A stretch of 32,819 bases of DNA from Alphaproteobacteria bacterium (lineage in GTDB: Bacteria; Pseudomonadota; Alphaproteobacteria; Elsterales; Elsteraceae). A program made the translations under genes and the position numbers. The number at the start of each line of letters is the position of its first letter. Within the stretch, counting starts at the first letter, position 1. Location of the stretch: NCBI GenBank assembly GCA_013298565.1, contig JAAFIC010000033.1, positions 1 through 32,819 of the forward strand, in the 5' to 3' direction. Below are positions 1-1,733 of the stretch, piece after piece. Under the pieces are notes generated by a model, which saw only the letters and a program-made list of their open reading frames with translations, was not told the origin of the DNA and did not search any database.

Positions 1-515
1 ATGGCGATTTTGATTTCTTTACCGCTGGCGGCAACGCCCTTGAACACATCCCTCAGCGGGGCCGAATTGAGGCCCACCTTGAGGTCTTTATAGGCATTCG
101 AGACCGAAATCGCCTGACCGTTGGTATTGAGGCGCAAGACGATAGAAATGGGTACAGGCCGATTGTTTTTGCTGATCTTGCCAAGCTGGAGCAGGTACGG
201 CATCGGGGTGAGAATATGCGCGCCATCAACGCCGCCGCCGCCCGAGCCGAGTTCGAGATTATCGCGCGTTGTACCCCAGCTTGCCTGCTTCACCACGTCC
301 ACATCGGGCATACCATATTTGGCGAATAAGCCTTTTTCCTTGGCGATAATCAGCGGGCTGGCGTCCGTGAGGGCGATATAGCCCAAGGTAGCCTTCGTCG
401 TTTCAAGACCGGCCCCTTGGGCAAAAGCCCCTGCCGGAAACAGGGTTTTCGCAGCGGCCAGCGTCGCAGCCGCGCCAGAGACGTGCAGGAGAGAACGGCG
501 GGAAAAATCACGCAT
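1..515 (-). CDS. nrtA: Nitrate ABC transporter substrate-binding protein, NrtA/CmpA family (N-terminal part, runs off the window)
   Basis: This is the first ~171 residues of a periplasmic oxyanion-binding protein that would deliver nitrate to an NrtBC-type ABC permease. A twin-arginine signal is visible at the N-terminus (RDFSRRSLL, then a hydrophobic Ala-rich stretch and an AFAQ cleavage site), so it is probably exported folded by Tat. The mature part has family hallmarks: GYIALTDASPLIIAKEKG, KQASWGTTRD, a GGVDGAHILTPMPY block and LNTNGQAISV. The ATG lies 5 nt after the nasS stop, with AAGGAG inside the end of nasS as ribosome site, so the two genes are co-transcribed. Nitrate is the likely ligand because of the nasST context; bicarbonate or cyanate relatives cannot be excluded. 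The C-terminus and any permease genes lie outside the window. Confidence 0.88.
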   Translation of the reverse strand, partial: MRDFSRRSLLHVSGAAATLAAAKTLFPAGAFAQGAGLETTKATLGYIALTDASPLIIAKEKGLFAKYGMPDVDVVKQASWGTTRDNLELGSGGGGVDGAHILTPMPYLLQLGKISKNNRPVPISIVLRLNTNGQAISVSNAYKDLKVGLNSAPLRDVFKGVAASGKEIKIA

Positions 516-520
516 GGGGG

Positions 521-1588
521 TCAAGCTCCTTGATCGGCGGAAAAAGCAAGGTCGAACAAATCGGCTCTCAGGCAGTGGGCCACCGCCGCCGATCCAGTTT
601 CGGGCGGCACTAAGCGCCAGCGTTTCAGGCCCGTGAGCAGCGCCTGCCCCGCGCCGAAATCCGGGCGCTGCCAAGGGCCGCTGAACTGGTGAAAACGCGG
701 CGTGAACGGCGGTTCTGCCGTGAGCGAGGCCGCAATCACAGCATCGGGCAGGCCCAGCAGGTCTGGGGCGGCCAGACGGCGGGCAAGCTCCGCCCGATTG
801 GCGGGCGTATCGCACCAGGCCCCGGCTTTCACCAGAGCGCGAATAAGCGCCGACACGGTTTGCGGCGCGCGGGCAGCAAAATCGGCGCGAACAGCGAAGA
901 CTTTTTCCGGCATTCCCGGCGTGATGTCGGAACTAAGCGCGACCGGTTGGCCTACGCCCCGCGCCGCTGCCCACGATCCCCAAGGCTCGCCCGCACAAAA
1001 CCCATCCAGATTCCCGGCCTCGATTTGGGCCACGGTTTGCGCCGGCGGCACGACGATGACGCGCAAATCCCTATCCGGGTCGATCCCGCCCGCCGAAAGC
1101 CAGTCGCGCAGTTGCAGCATGTGCGTGGAAATGCCGAAAACAGCAGCAAACGTCAGCAGCCGACCCCGCCGAGCGGTCAATTCCGGCAGAATTGCTTTGA
1201 GGTGAGCGGCAGACAGCGGGCGTTCTAATGCTGCCCCTGGCGCAATCGCATCCAGCAGGCTTTGGGCGATGGTAATGGTATTGCCTTGTACCGAAAGCGT
1301 TAGCAAGGTTGTCATTGGCGTTACGGGCGCGCCAAGGCCAAGGCTCATGGCCAGCGGCATTGGCGCGATCATCTGCGCGCCATCCAGCGCCCCCACCAGC
1401 ACCTTATCGCGGATATTGGCCCAAGAGGCTTCGCGCGACAGGCTTACGTCCAACCCTTCAGCCGCGAAATAACCTTCCTGCTGCGCCACGATCAACGGTG
1501 CAGCGTCCGTTAGCGGCATAAAGCCTAGGCTAACCGCCACGCGGCCAGCGGGGCGAGCAATCGCTATAGAATCGACCAGAAAGGGCAT
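521..1588 (-). CDS. nasS: NasS-type cytoplasmic nitrate sensor
   Basis: A 355-residue NrtA-like protein with no signal peptide or lipobox, as expected of NasS, the cytoplasmic nitrate/nitrite sensor. In characterised systems NasS binds the ANTAR protein NasT when nitrate is absent and releases it when nitrate binds. Family motifs include LGFMPLTDAAPLIVAQQEG, REASWANIRDK, GALDGAQMIAPMPL and GEPWGSW. The ATG at 1588 is chosen because GGAG sits 6 nt upstream. An in-frame TTG at 1606 lies inside the terminator U-tract and is unlikely. The gene lies 3' of nasT and 5' of the exported nitrate-binding protein, behind a sigma-54 promoter and ANTAR attenuator. It could be a second, leaderless transport receptor, but the nasT neighbour makes the sensor role much more likely. 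Confidence 0.87.
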   Translation of the reverse strand: MPFLVDSIAIARPAGRVAVSLGFMPLTDAAPLIVAQQEGYFAAEGLDVSLSREASWANIRDKVLVGALDGAQMIAPMPLAMSLGLGAPVTPMTTLLTLSVQGNTITIAQSLLDAIAPGAALERPLSAAHLKAILPELTARRGRLLTFAAVFGISTHMLQLRDWLSAGGIDPDRDLRVIVVPPAQTVAQIEAGNLDGFCAGEPWGSWAAARGVGQPVALSSDITPGMPEKVFAVRADFAARAPQTVSALIRALVKAGAWCDTPANRAELARRLAAPDLLGLPDAVIAASLTAEPPFTPRFHQFSGPWQRPDFGAGQALLTGLKRWRLVPPETGSAAVAHCLRADLFDLAFSADQGA

Positions 1589-1604
1589 GGGCGGCTCCAA
1601 AAAC

Positions 1605-1664
1605 AAAAAAGCGCCCGAAGCTCCAAATATCCCCGGTTTCGGGGATCATTCAGTCTTCGGACGC
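1605..1664 (-). terminator. Intrinsic terminator in the nasS leader (attenuator)
   Basis: Read on the minus strand, GCGTCCGAAG (1664-1655) pairs over 10 bp, with one G-U, with CTTCGGGCGC (1620-1611). Six T follow (1610-1605). A smaller perfect hairpin (ATCCCCG...CGGGGAT, 1629-1646) lies inside the loop. It ends 16 nt before the nasS ATG. Its 5' arm shares bases with the second ANTAR hairpin, so the two structures cannot coexist. Confidence 0.9.
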
Positions 1665-1697
1665 CGTTGTCCTGCGGGTTCGGGACGCCATTGCCCC
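1659..1697 (-). promoter_or_regulatory. Tandem ANTAR-target hairpins P1 and P2 (antiterminator for NasT)
   Basis: On the minus strand, P1 is GGGGC-AAUGGC-GUCCC (1697-1682; 5 bp with one G-U). P2 is GGAC-AACGGC-GUCC (1672-1659; 4 bp). They are separated by 9 nt. Both have six-base loops with A at loop position 1 and G at position 4, the signature established for ANTAR-protein RNA targets. The last two loop bases and the 3' arm of P2 lie in the 5' arm of the terminator, so NasT-stabilised P2 would let polymerase read into nasS. NasT is encoded immediately upstream. Confidence 0.88.
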
Positions 1698-1716: not shown

Positions 1717-1733
1717 AGCAAACTGCGTGCCAA
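1717..1733 (-). promoter_or_regulatory. Sigma-54 (RpoN) -24/-12 promoter for the nasS-nrtA transcript
   Basis: The minus strand reads TTGGCACGCAGTTTGCT, a near-perfect match to the RpoN consensus TGGCACG-N4-TTGCW. The GG and GC doublets have exactly 10 bp between them (GG at 1731-1730, GC at 1719-1718). The predicted start is near 1706, about 8 nt before hairpin P1. This makes the operon a candidate for NtrC-type nitrogen control. A convincing NtrC dimer site was not found in the gap; it could lie within the 3' part of nasT. Confidence 0.82.

Follow-up and report, generated by a model that had tools for sequence, protein, structure and literature searches.

Gene organization at the locus

The window, i.e., the whole stretch of 32,819 nucleotides that was analysed, comes from an alphaproteobacterial genome of 3.02 Mb (97% complete, 126 contigs). 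On its minus strand, nasT (2402-1800) is separated by about 210 nt from nasS (ATG at 1588), after which nrtA runs off the contig end:

1800..2402, minus strand: nasT, encoding a receiver-like domain and an ANTAR RNA-binding domain; probable start ATG 2387
1595..1598, minus strand: ribosome-binding site GGAG, 6 nt 5' of the nasS ATG and, by its sequence, outside the terminator helix described below
521..1588, minus strand: nasS, encoding a nitrate/nitrite-binding protein of the NMT1_2 fold without signal peptide (PF13379, E 9.3e-78)
1..515, minus strand: 5' part of nrtA, encoding a nitrate ABC-transporter binding protein with a Tat signal (PF13379), cut by the contig end

In a domain search, NasT matched the ANTAR family (PF03861, E 5.5e-21) and, weakly, the receiver family (PF00072). 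It is the product of the single ANTAR gene in the genome, and a cognate ANTAR protein is thereby encoded. The product of nasS, presumed to be the inhibitor of NasT, falls in a tree among NasS proteins that likewise lack a signal and have nasT as a neighbouring gene, apart from Tat-signal NrtA; together with the absence of a Tat signal, this marks it as a paralogue distinct from the transporter component. The window nrtA is 87% identical to its counterpart in a genome of the same genus (G001).

The first 178 bp of the window, inside nrtA, overlap the end of contig C102 of the same genome (window 1-178 = L165:11680-11857, G000:C102) at 99.4%. This contig carries, in the same direction, the rest of nrtA and genes for a permease, an ATPase, NirB, a molybdopterin nitrate reductase and a siroheme synthase. 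The nitrate operon is accordingly read as split by an assembly break between the window contig and C102, with the order nasS-nrtA-nrtB-nrtD-nirB-nasA-cysG across both contigs and nrtB onward on C102. Owing to the overlap and the continuation in the same direction, the leader between nasT and nasS very probably stands at the head of the entire assimilation operon, and genes for both nitrate transport and nitrate reduction stand behind it.

Architecture of the leader

The gap between nasT and nasS contains the following elements:

1717..1732, minus strand: sigma54 (-24/-12) promoter, TGGCACGCAGTTTGCT, the sole perfect match in the window
1697-1682, minus strand: P1 hairpin, GGGGC[AAUGGC]GUCCC, with a stem of 5 bp including one G-U; loop 1692-1687, A1 at 1692, G4 at 1689
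1681-1673, minus strand: linker between P1 and P2, GAACCCGCA, 9 nt
1672-1659, minus strand: P2 hairpin (antiterminator), GGAC[AACGGC]GUCC; loop 1668-1663, A1 at 1668, G4 at 1665
1605..1664, minus strand: intrinsic terminator, with arms 1664-1655 and 1620-1611, an inner hairpin at 1646-1629 and a U-tract at 1610-1605

Both hairpins have stems of at least 3 bp and 6-nt loops with A1 and G4, and the linker falls within the range of 5-12 nt found in Enterococcus faecalis eut leaders (PMC3369931). The terminator helix, formed by GCGUCCGAAG (1664-1655) with CUUCGGGCGC (1620-1611), comprises 10 bp with zero mismatches and is followed by U6 at 1610-1605 and then GUUUUU. The last two loop bases of P2 (G5-C6) and its 3' arm are at the same time the start of the terminator 5' arm (common strand 1664-1659), so P2 and the terminator are predicted to be mutually exclusive. 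RNAfold assigned -34.1 kcal/mol to the terminator alone, -6.7 to P1 and -4.0 to P2; given the difference between terminator and P2, termination would be the default fold. A simple terminator scan did not list the leader terminator because its loop exceeds the 8-nt limit of the scan.

An earlier note on this DNA, made from the sequence alone, had described a complete ANTAR attenuator beside the gene for NasT, with AAUGGC and AACGGC loops 9 nt apart and a second hairpin that shares its last loop bases and 3' arm with a strong terminator. Read on the minus strand, both hairpins agreed base for base with this description, the shared strand and the strength of the terminator were confirmed, NasT and NasS are encoded on either side, and with all claimed parts present the overall reading is supported. 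Two features had been overlooked, namely the sigma54 promoter and the continuation of the operon on another contig.

The chance level of this anatomy depends on how much of it is required. The whole leader folds with z = -5.0 against 200 shuffles. Nearby pairs of A1/G4 hairpins are not rare by themselves: the window has 4, where about 1.1 would be expected. When a composite was defined as tandem A1/G4 hairpins in which the 3' arm of P2 begins a helix that runs into five or more T, it occurred once in the window; of 400 shuffled window strands one contained it, and of 20,000 shuffled nasT-nasS gaps two did.

Promoter and predicted transcript

By the usual sigma54 spacing, transcription would start near 1706, which leaves about 9 nt ahead of P1. 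Since the promoter lies between nasT and P1, the leader most likely belongs to a separate transcript starting at this point, and the terminated RNA would be about 100 nt long. The leaders of relatives are likewise preceded by a sigma54 element at a matching distance; in the two-hairpin relatives G001, L043, G288 and G378, promoter and P2 are separated by 59-68 nt, as in the window. NtrC-type enhancer sites (TGCACC-N5-GGTGCA, at most 3 mismatches) occurred at chance frequency, and none lay near the promoter.

A further sigma54-like site with one mismatch, TGGCCCGCGCTTTGCT, is located at 2415-2430 on the minus strand, immediately 5' of nasT. It suggests that nasT is transcribed from a nitrogen-regulated promoter of its own, behind which the leader would be very short.

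Conservation and covariation

A covariance model (R1) was built from 7 leaders. In its own genome, the window leader was the one strong match (E 2e-19); no convincing second leader was found there, and the ORFs listed beside the best candidate (E 0.175, on contig C55) include none for nitrate functions. Across the class, 16 of 386 genomes were matched, and leaders outside the training set were recovered in the same genus (G001, E 6e-14) and the same family (G006, E 1.3e-12). A weak match in another genome of the class (G005, L113) was not taken as support, as it shows neither a clear A1/G4 tandem nor an adjoining nas gene.

Comparison of the leaders, which the earlier note had proposed as a check on P1, P2 and the terminator, revealed the compensatory changes it had looked for in a set of 28. 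For P1 and P2 together, 98.0% of alignment cells are paired and 7 of 9 pairs show two-sided changes, a level reached by none of 500 shuffles, with counts that lean towards the proposed structure because the alignment (A3) was model-fitted to it. Two-sided changes affect all five pairs of P1 and 2 of the 4 pairs of P2, in which 100% of cells are paired, while in the terminator helix 98.8% of cells form pairs and compensatory changes are likewise present. In addition, the dual A1/G4 hexaloops are kept in most relatives compared.

The strongest evidence is a three-way covariation that involves the 5' arm of P2, the shared strand and the 3' arm of the terminator. These three segments read GGAAC/GUUCC/GGAAC, GGAGC/GCUCC/GGAGC and GGGC/GCCC/GGGC, as against GGAC/GUCC/GGGC, and in G273 a change of loop G5 to A is matched by U in place of C in the terminator arm. 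A joint change of the shared strand and both of its partners is the outcome that mutual exclusion predicts.

Variation in hairpin number was also observed. Many NasT leaders contain three stem-loops from promoter to terminator (L032:3187-3317, L036:5608-5720, L041:5626-5737, L068:5367-5492, L039:6702-6846, L116, L117), and in L034, L037, L038, L042, L044 and L051 the middle stem-loop has no A1/G4. With this middle hairpin bridging them, the two A1/G4 hairpins of these leaders are spaced more widely than the EutV linker rule permits.

Genomic placement of the leader

Most of the relatives examined have the leader behind nasT or nasTS, with several variants in gene order. It stands directly 5' of nasS in the window, G008, G006, G378 and G273, and nasT lies just upstream of it in the same genomes except G006. 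In this genome of the same family, leader-nasS-nrtA (L112, G006:C11) are apart from nasT (L168, G006:C61), which is located elsewhere, and no leader match was found behind nasT on G006:C61. In G201 and G288, nasS is placed further downstream, behind the leader and nrtA. A Paracoccus-like order, with the leader after nasT-nasS and before other genes, occurs in G050 and Telmatospirillum; the gene next after the leader in G050 begins like NirB. In the same-genus G001, the arrangement YgjV-leader-nrtA is kept (L111, G001:C32), neither nasT nor nasS adjoins the leader, and a NIT-ANTAR protein of the NasR type is encoded elsewhere (L169, G001:C33). From this placement across relatives, it follows that the leader persists when its regulator is exchanged and that nasS often lies inside the regulated unit. 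These arrangements suggest that, in a single genus, one and the same RNA can come under the control of either NasT or NasR.

These data also bear on the function of the terminator. A strong terminator between two genes could simply be constitutive and end the nasT transcript; nasS-nrtA would then depend on the sigma54 promoter alone, and P1 and P2 would be incidental. However, the terminator lies downstream of that promoter and would block the nasS transcript too. Furthermore, P1 is outside the terminator and yet is kept, with A1/G4 loops and the two-sided changes given above, and in G001 the leader precedes nrtA without nasT upstream. A purely constitutive role is therefore judged highly improbable.

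Predicted recognition of the leader by NasT

In the crystal structure of EutV with RNA, base contacts are made by G4, whereas A1 has no specific contact and probably only aids loop folding; the residues that contact G4 are R142, K149, E160 and Y164 (PMC8934654). Alignment with 6WSH/6WW6, in which an offset of 2 between chain and published EutV numbering was inferred, showed that NasT keeps the residues corresponding to R142, K143, K149, E160, Y164, M172 and R177. At other positions, K147 is replaced by R, N173 by D and R175 by G. The last two differences count against the attenuator reading, although NasR likewise carries D and a residue other than R there. The prediction that a change of either A1 or G4 should abolish induction was thus too even-handed: it stands for G4, which is contacted, and less so for A1, which is not specifically contacted. 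Since G4 of P2 adjoins the terminator arm, G4 of P1 would offer the cleaner test.

Proposed mechanism and feedback

Altogether, it is considered very likely that the leader is a NasT-responsive ANTAR transcription attenuator heading nasS-nrtA-nrtB-nrtD-nirB-nasA-cysG. Transcription would proceed from the upstream sigma54 promoter, which is expected to be active in nitrogen limitation via NtrC. By default, the nascent RNA would fold the 1664-1611 hairpin and RNA polymerase would stop in the U-tract near 1605. In Paracoccus, nitrate or nitrite causes the NasS-NasT complex to come apart, and NasT binds to the nasA leader (PMC3795266), in which mutation of hairpin I leads to no growth on nitrate (PMC5424462). 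By analogy, nitrate or nitrite bound to NasS would release NasT, and the freed NasT would bind the hexaloops of P1 and P2 via G4 and hold P2. With the 5' arm of the terminator taken up by P2, polymerase would then read through. The combined leader would act as an AND gate for nitrogen limitation (via sigma54) and nitrate (via NasT), the nitrate arm being derived from the Paracoccus studies (PMC3795266; PMC5424462). Such a leader represents a compact nitrate switch in a single RNA, in which every base pair is open to testing.

Mutually exclusive hairpins are also found in other kinds of attenuators, and a second input would be compatible with the sequence. The leader might in principle be another cis-acting switch, based on leader-peptide attenuation, a riboswitch or an RNA thermometer, with hexaloops that arose by chance. 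No Rfam riboswitch or thermometer reached its gathering score in the window, and the predicted transcript leaves little room for a leader ORF 5' of P1. A1/G4 loops on covarying stems are moreover the ANTAR signature, and the leader is found behind nasT or nasTS in most relatives examined. Little weight is consequently given to a switch of another kind.

With nasS placed immediately after the switch, negative feedback is predicted. Freed NasT would raise the level of its own inhibitor, which would keep the NasS:NasT ratio balanced; this step is read from the gene order. In such a self-balancing loop, free NasT would open the terminator, more NasS would be made and NasT would be recaptured unless nitrate is present. 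We regard the chances of this loop, with a wiring unlike the cotranscribed nasTS of Paracoccus and recurring in several alphaproteobacterial families, as evenly balanced. With nasS behind the switch in at least five genomes, the expected dynamics would shift from open-loop to negative feedback.

A competing possibility is that the ANTAR attenuator serves nrtA and the reductase genes, with nasS also expressed by read-through from the nasT promoter or from an internal promoter, so that NasS feedback would not operate. Cotranscription of nasT and nasS upstream of the attenuator in Paracoccus (PMC5424462) and the one-mismatch site before nasT (2415-2430) are in its favour. A transcript from the nasT promoter must, however, still cross the same terminator before nasS, and a weak scan of the minus strand from 1500 to 2600 found no sigma70-like promoter. 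A second source of NasS thus appears rather unlikely, though clearly less remote than the two alternatives considered above.

Relation to known ANTAR systems and narK RNA

The leader is classed with the ANTAR attenuators because their defining sequence features were tested and found, with binding and antitermination remaining predictions. The kind of mechanism is already known from Klebsiella nasF, Paracoccus nasA and EutV/eutP; what sets the window apart is the placement of nasS downstream of the switch. Klebsiella nasF has an Ntr/sigma54 promoter. It also shares an ANTAR protein, a dual hairpin with terminator and a nitrate assimilation operon with the window (PMC3369931), but NasR unites sensor and RNA-binding domains in one protein (NIT-ANTAR), the type that G001 pairs with the same leader. 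In Paracoccus denitrificans, nitrate-released NasT, a two-hairpin leader, a nas operon and NtrC input correspond to the present locus (PMC3795266; PMC5424462), whereas nasT and nasS share a transcript there and both precede the attenuator; in the window the attenuator lies between nasT and nasS, and nasS belongs to the controlled unit. Enterococcus eutP, controlled by EutV, resembles the leader in its dual A1/G4 hexaloops, its linker of 5-12 nt, a P2 that overlaps the terminator and the aligned G4-contact residues; it differs in that an ethanolamine signal is transmitted via histidine-kinase phosphorylation, not via release from a binding protein.

A search of Rfam at the gathering threshold gave zero matches in the window. 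The comparison with a covariance model proposed in the earlier note succeeded with R1, which matches the leaders, and fell short with the Rfam narK RNA (RF03032), which aligns over 1731-1658 at 24.6 bits, below its gathering score of 43.2 bits. At the leader of one relative (L043:5703-5772), narK RNA passes the threshold. The sigma54 promoter aligns with the 5' part of narK RNA, whose consensus combines such a promoter with an AACGGC hexaloop hairpin and CGAC[AAAGAC]GUCG; in contrast to the leader, the Rfam consensus structure pairs P1 only. A search of the open literature found no mechanism assigned to the family and no paper linking narK RNA to an ANTAR leader, a link that may nevertheless be known. 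From a phylum sample of matches above and below the gathering score, 30 narK loci (L127-L156) were checked by a mechanical rule, and 22 of them contain two A1/G4 hexaloop hairpins and a T-run. Based on these loci and on the alignments of the window and L043, narK RNA is most likely a sigma54-promoter-plus-ANTAR leader, and the comparison thereby suggests a mechanism for this Rfam family.
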